Below are positions 3,194-42,946 of a stretch of 64,000 nucleotides of DNA, piece by piece. A program made the position numbers and the translations under genes. This DNA comes from Caryophanales bacterium. GTDB taxonomy: Bacteria > Bacillota > Bacilli > Bacillales > Amphibacillaceae. The notes below the pieces were generated by a model. That model did no database searches. It saw only the letters and a program-made list of their open reading frames with translations, and had not been told where the DNA came from. The stretch lies in NCBI GenBank assembly GCA_029257405.1, contig JARIBO010000017.1, positions 48,065-112,064 on the forward strand, written 5' to 3'. Positions within the stretch are counted from its first letter, which is position 1; each line of letters starts with the position of its first letter.

Positions 3194-5818
3194 ATGTCAA
3201 AAAAACTAGTATTAATAGATGGAAACAGTTTATTATTTAGAGCTTATTATGCATTACCTTTACTACATAATGATTCGGGTGTTTATACAAATGCTGTTTA
3301 TGGCTTTACAAATATATTACTAAGAATTCTTGAAGAAGAAAAACCAACGCATATGTTAGTAGCATTTGATGCAGGGAAAACAACATTTAGACATTCATCA
3401 TATCAAGAATATAAAGGTGGCAGACAAAAAACACCACCTGAATTGTCTGAACAATTTCCGTTAACAAGAGAACTACTTAAAGCATTTAATATTCCACAAT
3501 ATGAATTAGATCTTTATGAAGCTGATGACATTATTGGTACTTTAGCTTTAGAAGGAGATAAAAAAGATTGGGAAGTTAAAGTAATTTCAGGAGACCAAGA
3601 TCTACTTCAATTAGTATCTAATCATGTCACAGTAGATTTAACTAAAAAAGGGGTTAGTGAAGTTGTTTCTTATACACCTGAGTCACTTACTGAAGAAATG
3701 GAATTAACACCAGAACAAATCATAGATTTAAAAGCATTAATGGGAGATAGTTCTGATAATATTCCAGGAGTACCAGGTGTAGGTATTAAAACAGCGATTA
3801 AATTATTAAAGGATTATGGCTCGCTCGACAATGTGTATGAGAATTTAGATAAAATCACAGCGAAAAAATTAAATGAAAATCTGACTAAGTACAAAGAAGA
3901 CGCATATTTAAGCTATCAACTTGCAACGATTAAACGTGACACACCGATTGAGATATCACTTGAAGATGTAAGTTACACTGGGTACGAAGATGAAGATGTT
4001 ATAAAATTATTCCAAACACTAGAATTTCGTTCATTGATTGAAAGAATGGGCGGAGAACAAAAAGTAGAAGAAGAAATAAATGTGCCATTTGAAATAATCG
4101 AAGAAATTAAAGCAGAATATCTTGTTAGTGGGTCAATTTTAAATGTCGAAATGATTGATGAAAATTATCATGATGCTAACATAGAAGCAATAAGTCTTGT
4201 AAACGAAACAGGAAACTATGTTATTCATACTGATGACGCTTTAGGTTCAAAAATATTCATTGATTGGTTAGAAGACGATACAGAAGAAAAATCAATCTTT
4301 GATGTTAAAGCGACAACTGTTGCTTTGTTAAATCAAGGTATTCATTTAAAAGGAGTTAATTTTGATTTATTATTAGCAGCTTACGTAATTGATCCGGCAC
4401 AAAAAAATGAAGATATTCCATCGATTGCTAGGCGTCTAGGTCACAGATATGTGCAAATGGATGAAGAAGTTTATGGTAAAGGTGCTAAGCGACATGTACC
4501 TGAATTTGAAATCATTGCAGAACATGTAGCAAAACAGGGCCATGCATTGCATGAATTAAAACCAGAATTAATTGAAGGTCTTAAAGACAATGAACAATAT
4601 GATTTATTTATGAATCTTGAATTACCACTTGCCCAGGTATTAGCAGAAATGGAACATGAAGGAATTAAAGTGGACGTATCTAAACTTAAAGAAATGGATA
4701 AAGAAATAAATGGGCGTATTCGAATAATCGAAAAGCGAATACATGAATTAGCAGGCGAGGAATTTAATGTTAACTCACCAAAGCAATTGTCTGTTATTTT
4801 ATTTGAAAAATTAGAACTGCCCGTTATTAAAAAAACAAAAACCGGTTACTCTACAGCTGCTGATGTTTTGGAAAAGTTAGAACAAGAGCATGAAATTATT
4901 CCAGAAATTTTCATGTATCGTCAATTAAAAAAGTTGCATTCAACTTATATTGAAGGATTATTAAAAGTTGTTTATAAAGATACAAGTAAAATTCATACAC
5001 GCTTTAACCAGGCGCTTACGCAAACAGGGCGCTTAAGCTCAACTGAACCAAACATGCAAAATATACCTGTACGTTTGGAAGAAGGCAGAAAAATTAGGCA
5101 GGCGTTTATTCCATCAACAGCCGATTCTGTGATTTTTGCAGCGGACTACTCACAAATTGAATTACGCGTGCTTGCTCACATCTCAGGAGATGAAAATTTA
5201 AGTGATGCATTTAGACATGATAAAGATATTCATACGCAAACAGCAATGGATGTATTTCATGTTGACAGAGATGCAATTGACGATAATATGAGAGATCAAG
5301 CTAAAGCGGTAAACTTTGGAATTATATATGGTATTAGTGATTATGGTTTATCACAAAACTTAAAAATTTCGAGAAAAGAAGCAGGAGAGTTTATTGAAAG
5401 ATATTTAGCAATTTATCCAAAAGTTAAAGAGTACATGGAAGAGATTGTTAAAGATGCAAAACATAAAGGCTATGTAACAACAATTATGAATAGACGTCGT
5501 TATTTACCAGATATTACGAGTCGTAACTTTAATCAAAGAAGTTTCGCTGAAAGAACAGCAATGAATACACCGATTCAAGGTAGTGCGGCTGATATTATTA
5601 AAAAAGCAATGATTGATTTACAAGAAGAATTAAAAACTAAAAACTTTAAATCAAAAGTATTACTCCAAGTTCATGATGAGCTAATCTTAGAAGTGCCAAA
5701 TGAAGAATTAGATGCAATTATAAAATTAGTGCCAGAAGTGATGGAGAATACAGTTAAATTAAATGTGCCATTAAAAGTAGATTACTCGTATGGAGCGAGT
5801 TGGTTTGATGCTAAATAA
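3194..5818 (+). CDS. polA: DNA polymerase I
   Basis: 5' nuclease domain (LIDGNSLLFRAYYALP) and family A polymerase motifs (DYSQIELRVLAH, AVNFGIIYGIS, QVHDELILEVP). Confidence 0.97.
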   Translation: MSKKLVLIDGNSLLFRAYYALPLLHNDSGVYTNAVYGFTNILLRILEEEKPTHMLVAFDAGKTTFRHSSYQEYKGGRQKTPPELSEQFPLTRELLKAFNIPQYELDLYEADDIIGTLALEGDKKDWEVKVISGDQDLLQLVSNHVTVDLTKKGVSEVVSYTPESLTEEMELTPEQIIDLKALMGDSSDNIPGVPGVGIKTAIKLLKDYGSLDNVYENLDKITAKKLNENLTKYKEDAYLSYQLATIKRDTPIEISLEDVSYTGYEDEDVIKLFQTLEFRSLIERMGGEQKVEEEINVPFEIIEEIKAEYLVSGSILNVEMIDENYHDANIEAISLVNETGNYVIHTDDALGSKIFIDWLEDDTEEKSIFDVKATTVALLNQGIHLKGVNFDLLLAAYVIDPAQKNEDIPSIARRLGHRYVQMDEEVYGKGAKRHVPEFEIIAEHVAKQGHALHELKPELIEGLKDNEQYDLFMNLELPLAQVLAEMEHEGIKVDVSKLKEMDKEINGRIRIIEKRIHELAGEEFNVNSPKQLSVILFEKLELPVIKKTKTGYSTAADVLEKLEQEHEIIPEIFMYRQLKKLHSTYIEGLLKVVYKDTSKIHTRFNQALTQTGRLSSTEPNMQNIPVRLEEGRKIRQAFIPSTADSVIFAADYSQIELRVLAHISGDENLSDAFRHDKDIHTQTAMDVFHVDRDAIDDNMRDQAKAVNFGIIYGISDYGLSQNLKISRKEAGEFIERYLAIYPKVKEYMEEIVKDAKHKGYVTTIMNRRRYLPDITSRNFNQRSFAERTAMNTPIQGSAADIIKKAMIDLQEELKTKNFKSKVLLQVHDELILEVPNEELDAIIKLVPEVMENTVKLNVPLKVDYSYGASWFDAK

Positions 5819-35778: not shown

Positions 35779-36696
35779 TTATAAAAACTTATTTGCTTTT
35801 TCTGTATTCGCAAAATGCACCTTTGCTATTTTGTCTAAGTATGCTTTACCATTATCTTGGATAATTTTAGCAATTAAGTGGTCTACTTTATTTGAAGCGC
35901 CCTTTAATAAAGTATAACCACTTGAACTGGAAAGGGCATCCATTTCTTTTAAAAAGCTTGCTCTAGCAATCACACTTGCTGTAGCAACAGCAACGGAATG
36001 ATGCTCAGCTTTTGTCATAAAGTGCGTTTTAGGGTGGACATATTCATTTTCTGAAGCGAGATATTTTTTATAAACATTAGGCAAACAAAATTGATCTATA
36101 ACAATACCTGCATAAGATTGTGGCGTTGTTTTTTGGATAACATTATTAATGACATGATGATGCAACATCGCTTTCATTTTGCCTTGTGACCAACCTGAAC
36201 GCTGTAATTGATTGTATTTTTCATTATGTAATACAAGGAGAGAGTAAGGAATCTTCATTTCAACAATTTTTTTACTCAACAATAAAATAACATCATCTTT
36301 TATAAGTTTAGAATCTTGGATTCCCAACTTTTTTAAAGCATCAATTTGTGGTTTGGTTATATAAACAGCAGCTGCTGTAACTGGTCCAAAGTAGTCTCCT
36401 GTTCCAGATTCATCTGATCCAATATGAGAACTAACCAGGACTTTATTTAAATTTTCATTTTGAATCGCACTATCCTCTACATTACTCTGTTTTATCCATT
36501 TATTTATTTCAATATCAGGATTAGCACCCTGAAAAAGAACTTTACCTGAATTATAAGCAGTAATAACTGCATGCGGTGTGCGTGCTCTAAATAAAGCACC
36601 TTTTGGATTGTTATCTAAAAAATCATGATAATATTTTTTCATAAGGGTTAATTTATCTGGTGTAAAAGTATGTACATTCTGTGACAATTGGCTCAC
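35779..36696 (-). CDS. rnhC: Ribonuclease HIII
   Basis: HIGSDESGTGDYFGPVTAAAVYI; rnhC-type N-terminal domain; divergent from the zapA-like gene. Confidence 0.96.
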   Translation of the reverse strand: MSQLSQNVHTFTPDKLTLMKKYYHDFLDNNPKGALFRARTPHAVITAYNSGKVLFQGANPDIEINKWIKQSNVEDSAIQNENLNKVLVSSHIGSDESGTGDYFGPVTAAAVYITKPQIDALKKLGIQDSKLIKDDVILLLSKKIVEMKIPYSLLVLHNEKYNQLQRSGWSQGKMKAMLHHHVINNVIQKTTPQSYAGIVIDQFCLPNVYKKYLASENEYVHPKTHFMTKAEHHSVAVATASVIARASFLKEMDALSSSSGYTLLKGASNKVDHLIAKIIQDNGKAYLDKIAKVHFANTEKANKFL

Positions 36697-36793
36697 TCCA
36701 TTTTAAATAATAATAATTTAACTAGAACGTTTCCTAAAACTACTTATTCATGTTAAAATTAATTGTATCACTTTAACTGAGAGGATCGTTAGC

Positions 36794-38299
36794 ATGAAGA
36801 ATAATAATAAAACAAAAATCAATGTAGAGATCGGAAATACAATATATACAATCGTGGGTACAGAATCTGAAGAGCACGTAAAAGATGTGGCTAAAAGAGT
36901 AAATGACAAAATGGACGAAATACATAATGCAAATAAATCTTTAGATGTAACGGATTTATCTGTTTTGACAGCTATTAACTCAATGAATGATTATGTGAAA
37001 ACTGAAGAAATAAGAGAAGAGAACAAAGAATTAAAAGAAAAATTAGAAAAAGAATTAGCTAACCAAGCAAAACTTGAAGAAAAACTCGAGAACTACAATA
37101 AGCTGGAAAATGAATTAAAAGAAAAATCAGCTCACATAACAAATTTACGTTCTGATATGGAAAATTATGACGAACTTAAAAAGAAAGCAACAAATTATGA
37201 TCGCATGAAAGAAAGAACGAATGATTATGATCGGATTAAAAAAGAATTACAAGAAAAATCATCAGAAGTAAATAAATTACGTTCTAATACAAAAGAAAAA
37301 GCTAATCAAAATGATAAAATTCAAAAAGAACTACAAGAAAAATCATCAGAAGTAAATAAATTACGTTCACGTATGGAAGATTATAATAAGCTTAAAAATC
37401 AAGCAGATAATTACACACGCTTGAAAGAAAAAACGAACGATTATGACGCAATTAAAGAAAAAGCAGATCAATATGAAAGCTTAAAGAGCGAATTAGTGGA
37501 TCAAGCGAAATTAGAAAAGAAAATGCAAGATTATGAAAAAATACAAAAAGAGTTACAAGAAAAAACGTCTGAAGTAAATAAATTACGCACGAATCTAGAA
37601 GATTACAACGAGCTTAAAATCCAAGCAGAAAATTATGCACGCTTAAAAGAAAGAACGAGCGATTATTACGACATTAAAGAAAAAGTGAAAGATTATGATG
37701 CTATCAAAGAAAAAGCAGATCAATATGAAAGCCTAAAGAGCGAGTTAGTTGATCAAGCAAAATTAGAAAAGAAAGTACAAGACTATGACGAAATCCAAAA
37801 AGATCTCCAAGAAAAAACGTCAGAAATTAATAAGTTACGTTCAAGCCTGGAAGATTATAATGAGCTTAAAATTCAAGCAGGAAATTACGCACGCTTAAAA
37901 GAAAGAACGAGCGATTACTACGAGATTAAAGAAAAAGTAAAAGATTACGACGCAATAAAAGAAAAAGCAGATCAATACGAAGAATTGAAAGAAAAACTAT
38001 GGGATCAAATGGCACTTGAAAAGAAAATGCAAGACTATGAAAATGTTCAAAAAGAACTAGAAATCAAACATTCTGAAGTAGATCATTTACGTAATATGAT
38101 GGAAGATTATAATGAAATTAAAAACCAAGCTGCGAATTATGATCGATTAAAAGAACAAACAAAGGATTATAATGATTTAAAAGAAGAATTAAATAAAAAA
38201 TCAGAGCAATTGAAAGCACTCGAAAGTACTACGAGAGACTATGAAAAGTTAAAAGAAGAGTACGATGTTTTAATAGCTCTGTTTGAAGAGGAAAAATAA
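36794..38299 (+). CDS. ZapA-like protein with long repetitive coiled-coil extension (501 aa)
   Basis: N-terminus KINVEIGNTIYTIVGTESEEHVKDVAKRVNDKMDEI...LSVLTAINSMND is ZapA-like; then about 400 aa of repeats ([DN]Yxx[LI]K). Position between rnhC and cvpA matches zapA. Confidence 0.85.
   Translation: MKNNNKTKINVEIGNTIYTIVGTESEEHVKDVAKRVNDKMDEIHNANKSLDVTDLSVLTAINSMNDYVKTEEIREENKELKEKLEKELANQAKLEEKLENYNKLENELKEKSAHITNLRSDMENYDELKKKATNYDRMKERTNDYDRIKKELQEKSSEVNKLRSNTKEKANQNDKIQKELQEKSSEVNKLRSRMEDYNKLKNQADNYTRLKEKTNDYDAIKEKADQYESLKSELVDQAKLEKKMQDYEKIQKELQEKTSEVNKLRTNLEDYNELKIQAENYARLKERTSDYYDIKEKVKDYDAIKEKADQYESLKSELVDQAKLEKKVQDYDEIQKDLQEKTSEINKLRSSLEDYNELKIQAGNYARLKERTSDYYEIKEKVKDYDAIKEKADQYEELKEKLWDQMALEKKMQDYENVQKELEIKHSEVDHLRNMMEDYNEIKNQAANYDRLKEQTKDYNDLKEELNKKSEQLKALESTTRDYEKLKEEYDVLIALFEEEK
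37496..38251 (+). repeat. Three in-frame 252-bp (84-aa) tandem repeats, third degenerate
   Basis: Units begin at 37496 (VDQAKLEKKMQDY), 37748 (VDQAKLEKKVQDY) and 38000 (WDQMALEKKMQDY), exactly 252 bp apart. Confidence 0.9.
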
Positions 38300-38788
38300 A
38301 TGATTGTAGACATTATCGTATTAATTATTTTATTATACGGTTTGTTCAGTGGATTAATGCGTGGTGGCGTTTTACAGTTTTTTTCCTTAGTTGGTTTTAT
38401 AATTGCGATAATCGTAGCGCGTTTGTTTTCATCAGATTTAGCCGATATAATTAATTCAATCATTTCAACAGATAATGGAGCATGGTTAATACTTTATAAT
38501 GTCATCAGTTTTATGATTATTTATATTATTGTGAGACTTATTATAAGAAAAATAGCTAGTGTGTTAAATATAGTTACTAAATTACCTGTTATTGGTTTTT
38601 TAAATCGAATAATAGGAGCTTTATTAGGGTTTGTTCAAATGTATTTAGTTTCCTTTATTATTATAATTATTTTATTCTTAATACCAATGGAAAATGTAAA
38701 AGGATTAATAGAAGGATCACGAGTAGCAATGTATATGGTTAATTCTACACCTGTTATATCAGATATAATTAAAACGTGGTTTAACTAA
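38300..38788 (+). CDS. CvpA family membrane protein
   Basis: Four hydrophobic segments, MIVDIIVLIILLYGLFSGLMRGGVLQFFSLVGFI; directly after the zapA-like gene. Confidence 0.88.
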   Translation: MIVDIIVLIILLYGLFSGLMRGGVLQFFSLVGFIIAIIVARLFSSDLADIINSIISTDNGAWLILYNVISFMIIYIIVRLIIRKIASVLNIVTKLPVIGFLNRIIGALLGFVQMYLVSFIIIIILFLIPMENVKGLIEGSRVAMYMVNSTPVISDIIKTWFN

Positions 38789-38873: not shown

Positions 38874-40595
38874 ATGGAGTTAACAAAAAAAGATGTTGTT
38901 CAGCATCTAGAGAATATAGCTGTTTATTTAGAATTAAAAGGTGAAAATCCATTTAGAATTTCAGCTTATCGAACAGCAGCTCAAAATATAGAAACAGATA
39001 TTAGATCGTTAAAAGAGATTGAAGACTTTAAATCAATTAAAGGTATTGGTGATGGAACAAATGGAATTATAAAAGAATTTATCAAGACTGGAACGTCTGA
39101 GGAATTAAAAAAATTAAAAAAAGACGTACCAGAAGGTTTAATCCCTTTATTAAAACTTCCTGGAATCGGCGGTAAGCGTTTAGCTACACTATATGAAGAA
39201 TTAGATGTAACAGATATGGAAAGTTTAAAACATGTGTGCGAAACAGGTGCTGTCGAAAAAATAAAAGGATTTGGAAAAAAGACGACTGAAAATATATTAA
39301 ATGCAATTTCTGAGTATAGTACGCAACCAGAAAGATTACCCATTTCAATTATGCTACCTATAGCAGAAAAAATACATGACTATGTGACATCCATAGATGA
39401 AGTCGAGAAAAGCTCAATTGCTGGAAGTATTAGAAGAATGAATGAGACAATTAAAGATATTGATTTTATTATCGCAACGGATAATCCAAAAGCAGTGACT
39501 GAGAAATTACTATTGCTTGATAATGTAATTGATGTTATAGCAAGTGGAGAAACAAAAACTAGCGTAACAATAAACGAAAAAGATTATTCAATTAATATTG
39601 ATTTTAGGCTTGTTGCAAGCAAGGAATATGCAACTACTCTGCATCATTTTACAGGTTCAAAAAATCATAATATCGCTATGAGACAACGTGCAAAAAAGCG
39701 CGGTGAAAAAATAAACGAATATGGAGTAGAAGTAGAAGCAACAGGTGAATTAATTCAGTTTAAAACAGAAAATAATTTCTTTAAACATTTTAACCTTGAA
39801 TTTATTCCTCCAGAAATGCGTGAAGATGGTACTGAAGTAAAAGCATTTGAGTCACAGGTTAATTTAATTCAAAATGATATGATTAAAGGCGATCTTCATA
39901 TGCATACAACTTGGAGTGATGGTGCCGAATCAATTGAAGATATGGTTAACGCTGCACGAAATTTAGGCTATGCATATATTGCTATAACAGATCATTCTAA
40001 ATTTTTACGTGTTGCAAATGGGTTAAATGAAAAAAGATTACGTAAGCAGCGAGAAGAAATTGACCGATTAAATGAAAAATATAATGATATATTAATTCTC
40101 GCAGGTGTTGAAATGGATATTCTTCCAAATGGGGAGCTTGATTTTGAAACAGAGTTTTTAGCTGAAATGGATCTTGTTATTGCAGCGATTCATTCTAGTT
40201 TCTCACAATCTGAAACAGAAATAATGAAACGTTTAGAAACAGCTTGTAGAAACCCTTATGTCGATATTATCGCTCATCCAACAGGACGATTAATTGGAAA
40301 ACGTGAGCCTTATGCGGTTAATATGGAAAAGTTAATTCAGCTGGCAAAAGAAACAAATACTGTACTTGAAATAAATGCACATCCACAACGTTTTGATTTA
40401 TCAGCCAAATGGGCAAAAGAAGCACAAAAACAAGGGGTTAGCATCGCAATCAATACAGATGCTCATCAAACTGAAACTTTGAAATACATGGATTATGGCA
40501 TAAGCGTAGGAAAAAAAGCTTGGTTAAAGCCTGAAACAGTTATTAATACATGGGATAAAAATAAATTACTTGAATTTATTAATCGTAATAGATAG
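38874..40595 (+). CDS. polX: DNA polymerase/3'-5' exonuclease PolX
   Basis: Pol beta core (HhH, GSIRR) and PHP domain (GDLHMHTTWSDG). Confidence 0.96.
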   Translation: MELTKKDVVQHLENIAVYLELKGENPFRISAYRTAAQNIETDIRSLKEIEDFKSIKGIGDGTNGIIKEFIKTGTSEELKKLKKDVPEGLIPLLKLPGIGGKRLATLYEELDVTDMESLKHVCETGAVEKIKGFGKKTTENILNAISEYSTQPERLPISIMLPIAEKIHDYVTSIDEVEKSSIAGSIRRMNETIKDIDFIIATDNPKAVTEKLLLLDNVIDVIASGETKTSVTINEKDYSINIDFRLVASKEYATTLHHFTGSKNHNIAMRQRAKKRGEKINEYGVEVEATGELIQFKTENNFFKHFNLEFIPPEMREDGTEVKAFESQVNLIQNDMIKGDLHMHTTWSDGAESIEDMVNAARNLGYAYIAITDHSKFLRVANGLNEKRLRKQREEIDRLNEKYNDILILAGVEMDILPNGELDFETEFLAEMDLVIAAIHSSFSQSETEIMKRLETACRNPYVDIIAHPTGRLIGKREPYAVNMEKLIQLAKETNTVLEINAHPQRFDLSAKWAKEAQKQGVSIAINTDAHQTETLKYMDYGISVGKKAWLKPETVINTWDKNKLLEFINRNR

Positions 40596-40606: not shown

Positions 40607-42946
40607 ATGAATGAAAAAACACTTCGTGTACTTGAATATGATAAAGTAATTAAAATATTAATTAACGAATCAGAGACGAGTATTGGGAAAGAGCTGAGTT
40701 TAAATATTAAGCCTAAAACAGCACTAGAAGATGTTCAGCGGCTCCAAGATGAGACAGATGAAGCGGTCTCTGTTATTAGACTTGATAAAACAATCCCGCT
40801 CGGAGGCATTACAAATATTCATGAATCTGTAAAACGAGCATTAATTGGAAGTACCTTGAGTGCTTCGGAATGTTTAAATGTTGCGACGACAATTTATGGC
40901 GGTAGACAAACTAAAAACTTTATAGATAATTTAGAAGAAGAAATGCCGCTTTTAGAAAATTATGCAACTAGAATTGATCCTTTATATGAATTAGAAAAAG
41001 AAATAACAGCTGCAATAGATGAACATGGACATGTTTTAGACACAGCATCTACTAAGCTACGTAGCATAAGGTCTTCAATTAGGGATTTAGAAGCACGTGT
41101 GAGAGAAAGGCTTAATAATTTTACACGTTCAAAAAGTAACATGCTTTCTGATTCAATTATTACAATTCGTAATGATCGTTTTGTATTACCAGTAAAAAGT
41201 GAATATCGTGGGGCTATAGGTGGGATTGTTCATGATCAATCATCATCTGGACAAACTGTTTTTATGGAACCACAAGCAGTTGTTGAGATAAATAATCGAC
41301 TTCAGCAAGCTATATTAAATGAAAACGATGAAGTAGAACGTATTTTGAATGCTTTAACGATAAAAATCGCAGGTTATCACATCGAACTAACAACAAATTT
41401 ATCTACTCTTGCAGAAATTGACCATATCTTTGCAAGAGCACGTTTAGGACAAAAAATGAAAGCTTCAATGCCTAAATTAAACAATCAAGGATTTATAGAA
41501 ATGAAACAAGCAAGACACCCTCTTATTCCAGCAGATGAAGTTGTTGCAAGTGACATTATACTCGGTAAAGAACATACAGCAATTGTTATTACAGGACCTA
41601 ATACAGGAGGAAAAACAGTCACGTTAAAAATGGTTGGTTTATGTACATTAATGGCTCAATCAGGTTTACAAATTCCTGCCCAAGACGGTTGTGAATTATC
41701 TGTATTTGATTATGTATTTGCAGATATAGGGGATGAACAGTCGATTGAACAAAATTTAAGTACTTTTTCTTCTCATATGACTAACATTGTTGACATTATG
41801 TCTAAAGTCGACGATAAAACACTTGTTTTATTTGATGAATTAGGTGCCGGAACAGATCCTGAAGAAGGTGCTGCTTTAGCAATGGCAATTTTAGATGAAG
41901 TTATTAAACGTGATGCACGCGTTATTGCAACTACACATTACCCAGAACTTAAAGCGTATGGATTTAATCGTGATCGTGTAATGAATGCATCTGTTGAATT
42001 TGACGTAGAAACATTAAGGCCTACTTATCGTCTCCTACTAGGTGTTCCAGGACGAAGTAATGCTTTTGATATTTCAAAACGTCTCGGTTTAAGTCAATCA
42101 TTGATTGATGATGCACAAAATCATATAGGTGTAGATTCACAAACAGTAAATACGATGATTACATCATTAGAAGACGCTAAATATCGTGCAGAAAAAGATT
42201 ATGAATTAGCAAAAGAACATTTACTTGAAACAGAATCATTAAAAGCAAATTTAGAAAAAGAATTAACCGAAATCAATAAACAAAAAGAATCAATATACAA
42301 AAAAGCAGAAGAGCGTGCTGAAAAAGTATTGCAAAAAGCACGTGAAGAAGCTGAATTTGTTGTTTCTGAAATTAAGAGTATGAAAAATCAAGGAAACTGG
42401 AAGGAACATGAATGGATTGATGCAAGAAGAATGCTAGATGAAGCTCAACCTAATTTAACTCAATCAGAAAAACAAACAAAAAAGCAAAAAAAAGTTGATG
42501 ATGTAACACTCGAAATAGGTGATGATATTAAACATTTGTCTATTAATCAAGAAGGAACAGTCATCGAAAAAACTGGTAAAAATGAGTATTTAGTACAAAT
42601 AGGAATGATTAAATTAAAAGCAAAAAGAAAAGATTTACAAAAAATTAAAAATAAAGAAATAGAAGTTGAACAAGTTACACGAATTAAACGCACGAGTCCA
42701 TCAGTAAAACCAGAATTAGATTTAAGAGGAATAAGATATGAAGATGCGATGATAAAAATAGAAAATTACTTAGATAGTGCTATACTATCAGGCTTTCCTC
42801 AAGTATCCATTATTCACGGTAAAGGGACTGGCGCACTTAGAAAAGGTGCCACTGAATATTTAAAAAACCATCCAAATGTTAAGAGTTATCGCTTAGGTGG
42901 ACAAAATGAAGGTGGAAGTGGTGTTACAATTGTAGAATTGAATTAG
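40607..42946 (+). CDS. mutS2: Endonuclease MutS2
   Basis: MutS ATPase ([30 protein letters not shown]) and C-terminal Smr domain ([11 protein letters not shown]...[11 protein letters not shown]). Confidence 0.97.

Follow-up and report, generated by a model that had tools for sequence, protein, structure and literature searches.

ZapA is among the most widespread proteins of the Z ring, and the cross-linking of FtsZ filaments is believed to depend on its rod. Short ZapA is known to form an antiparallel, dumbbell-shaped tetramer in which the C-terminal helices make up the rod, and tetramerisation is required for FtsZ bundling (PMC12216130, PMC12754632, PMC7246612). In E. coli and K. pneumoniae, the N-terminal tail of FtsZ is the ZapA-binding motif, which is gripped by the dimer heads (PMC12754632, PMC12216130). 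Canonical structures are available from G. stearothermophilus (2mmv), P. aeruginosa (1w2e/1t3u), E. coli (4p1m) and K. pneumoniae (9isj/9isk). In several lineages ZapA acts through a partner, of which ZapB is a coiled coil, and ZapB-MatP or ZauP-ZapT together with ZapA reaches the chromosome terminus (PMC7188993, PMC8687745).

The zapA gene described here lies in a 64,000-nucleotide stretch of DNA (the window). Its product shares the head fold and HMM, the locus, the C-terminal helix, the tip and the single copy with canonical ZapA of the B. subtilis type, but it has about 410 further residues that separate the head helix from the tip.

Results

The zapA reading frame and its surroundings are arranged as follows:

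35779..36696, minus strand: rnhC (RNase HIII), conserved neighbour (TIGR00716, E 7e-75)
36779..36784, plus strand: ribosome-binding-site-like motif GAGAGG 5' of the zapA ATG, read directly
36794-38299, plus strand: zapA ORF with ATG start and TAA stop, intact, 501 aa
36794..37003, plus strand: ZapA head, residues 1-70, beta-beta-alpha and the start of the long helix (HMMs, fold match to 2mmv/1t3u/1w2e)
37007..38236, plus strand: inserted coil, residues 72-481, with decad and 84-aa repeats, almost all predicted helix (congener comparison, repeats, AF2)
37424..38155, plus strand: 252-bp (84-aa) tandem array of about 2.9 copies (Tandem Repeats Finder, 79% matches, no indels)
38237..38299, plus strand: ancestral ZapA C-terminal tip, residues 482-501 (DYEKLKEEYDVLIALFEEEK), and stop (tip profile, cvpA junction)
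38300..38788, plus strand: cvpA (Colicin_V, PF02674)
38874..40595, plus strand: polX (NF006375)
40607..42946, plus strand: mutS2 (TIGR01069)

The gene order rnhC-zapA-cvpA-polX-mutS2 is the same as in the congeners and marks the orthologous position. Pfam and NCBIfam models of rnhC, cvpA, polX and mutS2 confirmed the zapA position that an earlier, sequence-only reading of this DNA had proposed. That reading had also considered a separate short zapA elsewhere; none was found in the 2.26-Mb, 97%-complete genome, in which the 501-aa ORF is the sole ZapA detected. The cvpA ATG at 38300 starts directly after the zapA TAA stop. CvpA itself is 162-163 aa long in the two species with a long ZapA (38300-38788 in the window; 4364-4855 in locus L042) versus 181-184 aa in the other congeners read, and the approximately 20 aa absent from it correspond to a ...HLSLWIPYPE... 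loop.

To assign the N-terminus, residues 1-86 were scored alone and reached 65.4 bits against Pfam ZapA PF05164 (cut-off 23.8) and 80.9 bits against NCBIfam NF010724 'cell division protein ZapA' (cut-off 80), so the possible failure of the ZapA HMMs raised earlier did not occur. The full-length protein scores below both cut-offs because the correction for the compositional bias of the coil depresses the values. The best Foldseek match of the AF2 model was ZapA 2mmv (E 2.2e-4). In a head tree built on only 70 columns, the window ZapA is nested within the clade of its genus (starred fork 98/92). Its end branch measures 0.45 compared to 0.08-0.26 in the congeners, and head evolution may therefore have accelerated once the coil had been acquired. 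The window ZapA may bind FtsZ and bundle its filaments; the FtsZ N-terminal tail is conserved in the window species, an indirect indication.

The short ZapAs of the genus end in a conserved helix, DY(I/L)KLKEE(Y/F/H)xELLxLxEEE, and in most congeners the zapA stop abuts the cvpA start. The same junction is present in the window. Scored with a profile of short-ZapA tips, the window tip ranked 1st of 408 positions with 30 bits, and a congener-only profile gave 32 bits, with 7 bits for the next best site. With the ancestral tip as the very end of the protein and cvpA following directly, the coil is an internal insertion: about 410 residues (72-481) have entered ZapA's own coiled-coil helix and separate its head part from the tip. 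The proposed fusion thus stands for the ZapA head with its long coil and fails for a foreign coil joined at the C-terminus, the ancestral tip being kept at the end.

The tail contains no Pro, a single Gly and 17% each of K and E. Its coil is built from a 10-aa sub-unit with a hydrophobic spacing of 3-4-3, and the repeat units differ among themselves. A regular heptad coiled coil with a period near 3.5 was not found in the window coil: power was 41 at a period of 3.37 and 0.1 at 3.50, with 99.9% of shuffles below 9.4, and the period stayed at 3.33-3.42 along the whole tail in 70-residue windows. The AF2 monomer shows the ZapA head and a nearly continuous helix in which residues 207-218 and 361-377 are low-confidence breaks. 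A period of 3.33, that is 10 residues over 3 turns (a stammer), is taken as the lower limit for coiled coils and described with local 3-10 distortion (PMC4786415). Since 3.37 is near this limit for continuous coiled coils, the window coil possibly departs from a regular, straight rod of two strands. Such a period over about 400 residues would be structurally unusual regardless of the function of the protein and an oddity worth solving. The unit of the insert, DYxxLKxxxx, resembles the start of the ZapA tip, which suggests, short of proof, an origin of the repeat in the helix of ZapA itself. Pfam matches of the tail to HIP1 clathrin-binding and Occludin were read as coiled-coil bias and rejected.

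A homologous tail was found in a second species, the MAG CALZEK01 (G006, 'uncultured Bacillaceae bacterium'). Here, contig CALZEK010000097 carries at least 361 open tail codons followed by cvpA-polX-mutS2; the contig ends inside the repeat and leaves the 5' end off, and the ZapA head is presumed from the position. The two tails share 67% amino acid identity over 294 aligned codons, with a pS of 0.588, a pN of 0.173 and a pN/pS of 0.295. This ratio and the frame kept open in a second species indicate that the tail is translated and under purifying selection, which speaks against the untranslated tail that had been considered earlier. Constraint is only moderate, as the tail ratio is somewhat above that of cvpA (0.217), polX (0.195) and mutS2 (0.147) and tops all genes compared. 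A hydrophobic period of 3.37 holds for this species as well, and its tip matches the short-ZapA tip profile with 20 bits (next site 11). The two arrays are not equally long: towards the C-terminus, G006 carries about 60 residues more, and a few are missing from it at other places.

The sequence-only reading had called the length abnormal and asked for a comparison with related genera, in which the length indeed proved abnormal. ZapA measures 83-86 aa, and lacks the coil, in the 5 other congeners with a readable ZapA, and 83-93 aa in named relatives (Pseudogracilibacillus auburnensis, Oceanobacillus, Virgibacillus, Halobacillus, Thermoactinomyces and others). The 501 aa of the window ZapA also lie outside the typical short length of about 85-110 aa, which does not define ZapA. 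One ZapA each was found in 160 of the 161 genomes of the family (the window's included), and among the matches listed all open frames except the window's were at most 206 aa long and without the inserted coil. In a class sample of 156 genomes, the matches listed exceeded 300 aa only in the window and in one further family (f48). Several apparent long ZapAs in other members of the phylum were rejected: those of G557 and G677 measure 92 aa and have a long open frame upstream of them, L112 encodes 78 aa, and L106-L108 encode 169-173 aa with Gly/Ala/Pro-rich tails. These last three come from a phylum group with 76% G+C, and their C-terminal tails of 80-100 residues are probably disordered and take the place of coils. 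A scan of genome contigs with the window protein itself as query gave no matches.

A survey of the phylum yielded three further giant ZapAs, all from f48, a large family of the same class (Bacilli) that is probably Paenibacillaceae, as judged from gene order among other features. ZapA is present in 150 of its 151 genomes, spread over 19 genera, and the open frames among the matches listed span 275-1616 aa, none of them short. We read 23 copies, 22 of which are complete (267-1612 aa) and one of which runs off its contig. With gene names assigned by eye, pheT lies upstream in both loci whose neighbours were read and mutS2 downstream in one of them. The coil between head and tip varies from about 180 to 1500 aa, whereas the tip, E-Y-x-K-L-Q-x-E-Y-N-E-W-I-E-L-I-E, is near-invariant across genera. 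The short-ZapA tip profile placed its rank-1 site within the last 26 residues in 20 of the 22 complete giants. Reading this tip as the ancestral C-terminus is supported by the short ZapAs of Thermoactinomycetaceae, which end in a EYDEIMHLIEDE-like sequence. The f48 coils (L109, L117, L121, L130 and others) are without the decads of the window and split by hydrophobic period, never 3.37, into a heptad class at about 3.5 and a near-straight class at about 3.64, to which the longer proteins tend.

In the 70-column head tree, f48 forms one clade, separate from the window's genus. As judged from this separation and the position of the window head inside its own genus, the two giant forms arose independently, both by insertion between head and tip. 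Horizontal transfer from f48 was rejected, given the nesting of the head in the genus clade and the differing coil periods. The statement that known ZapA proteins have about 85-100 aa does not hold for f48, where giants are the rule, and for the same reason the architecture, earlier taken as new, is recurrent and not unique. Long or giant ZapA was not described in the open-access subset of the literature that was searched, and the family-wide giant ZapA of f48 appears to be undescribed.

Discussion

The window ZapA belongs to a known family, as a variant whose architecture recurs, and is not a unique fusion. The best explanation, to which we give about an even chance, is an elongated FtsZ cross-linker with a reach of roughly 60-120 nm. 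It is favoured by the single ZapA detected in the genome, the nesting of its head among the congeners, the conserved FtsZ tail, the tip retained in the window protein, in G006 and in 20 of the 22 complete f48 giants, and the purifying selection on the tail. In this reading, the short C-terminal coiled-coil helix has been lengthened from inside by tandem duplication of a helical unit of about 10 aa/84 aa; the head that binds FtsZ remains on one side of it and the original C-terminal tip on the other. Most likely, the ZapA dimer would still form through the head and the two-stranded coil, and two dimers would still be joined through their tips. This would turn the short rung between FtsZ filaments into a very long dumbbell cross-link. 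With a coil length of 61 nm (410 residues x 0.1485 nm), the reach would be about 61 nm with overlapping arms and about 120 nm tip to tip. By analogy with the short tetramer, a stretched rod with head and tip kept is what would be expected if the tip still joins dimers. Against tip-mediated tetramerisation stands the solved Bacillus-type ZapA (2mmv), which is described as a mutant dimer. The breaks in the single-chain AF2 model and the period near the limit speak against a regular long rod, and the tail pN/pS above that of the neighbours against strong constraint.

Two other mechanisms start from the same architecture. In the main rival, the long ZapA would be a tether whose head binds FtsZ and whose tip, at least 60 nm away, binds a different partner, be it the nucleoid, the membrane or a septal synthesis factor; one chain would then do the job of ZapA and a partner such as ZapB in E. 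coli, ZauP in Caulobacter or ZapJ in pneumococcus. The partner systems described above, with their coiled-coil ZapB and their link to the chromosome terminus, favour this idea, as does f48, where a near-invariant tip with a fixed NEW motif behind a variable coil looks like a binding peptide carried by a spacer. We nevertheless consider it rather unlikely, as the tip already exists in the short ZapAs of the window's and other families as a piece of their coiled-coil helix, and no partner gene has been noticed so far. Alternatively, slippage-prone repeats could have lengthened an insertion-tolerant helix in a near-neutral way, leaving an ordinary ZapA function in which coil length plays little role. 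We give this a low but real probability because length varies, both between the two species and several-fold within f48, and constraint is moderate; the divergence of the repeat units and the tail pN/pS point the same way. Near-neutral growth fits poorly with the purifying selection over 294 aligned codons, with a coil that has kept its period and decad register in both species and is devoid of stops and Pro, with the absence of short reversions among the f48 matches listed, and with a tip retained in two independent origins.

Explanations that question the architecture itself fare worse. A gene fusion, with a foreign coiled-coil gene joined behind ZapA, could draw on the long coil and its weak SMC/Rad50-like matches, yet these are generic to coiled coils. 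A second copy of the tail is absent from the genome, and a search of 398 other genomes of the order (E <= 1e-10) gave no tail homologue. With the genuine ZapA C-terminus placed last in the protein, next to cvpA as in the congeners, we regard a fusion as highly improbable. An assembly artefact, in the form of a collapsed or chimeric repeat, comes to mind since both long-ZapA genomes are drafts and the G006 contig stops within the repeat. It is hardly credible for a continuous reading frame on a 112-kb contig with the locus complete on either side, all the more as a separate second assembly shares the tail-cvpA-polX-mutS2 order; the exact repeat copy number in the window zapA could still be wrong.

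Returning to the elongated cross-linker, the length of the division-ring linker looks repeatedly stretched by evolution, as a separate family evolved giant ZapA independently. A bolder and more doubtful version, which we put forward tentatively, would make ZapA a nanometre-scale ruler in at least two independent lineages, with hundreds of residues inserted at the same place of the rod, head and tip fixed and the distance between filaments evolvable; the window rod would then be a new kind of coiled coil with sustained decads at 3.37 residues per turn. Natural rods of about 20 to more than 1500 residues with both ends conserved offer a ready series to test filament spacing in division.

Among the systems that resemble the window ZapA, the giants of f48 share the ZapA head, a long coil and a retained ZapA-like tip; they differ in origin, period, length and the lack of decads. 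ZapB, ZauP and ZapJ would likewise add an extension to ZapA at the Z ring, but they are separate proteins, unlike the window coil, which is part of the ZapA chain. EzrA is a long helical Z-ring protein too, although separate and membrane-anchored. Its replacement by the long ZapA was rejected because an intact EzrA gene is present in both long-ZapA species, and the EzrA model PF06160 gave no match in the window protein. A lengthened C-terminal coil is also seen in the ZapA-like proteins L113 (182 aa), L114 (173 aa) and 3hnw (138 aa), the last of which we take to be from E. eligens. In contrast to the window ZapA, they have gained only tens of residues, and they are not close relatives. L113 and L114 come from the phylum survey and have moderately long coils; L114 ends in a tip of the Y-x-x-L-x-x-E-Y-E-x-F-L type.
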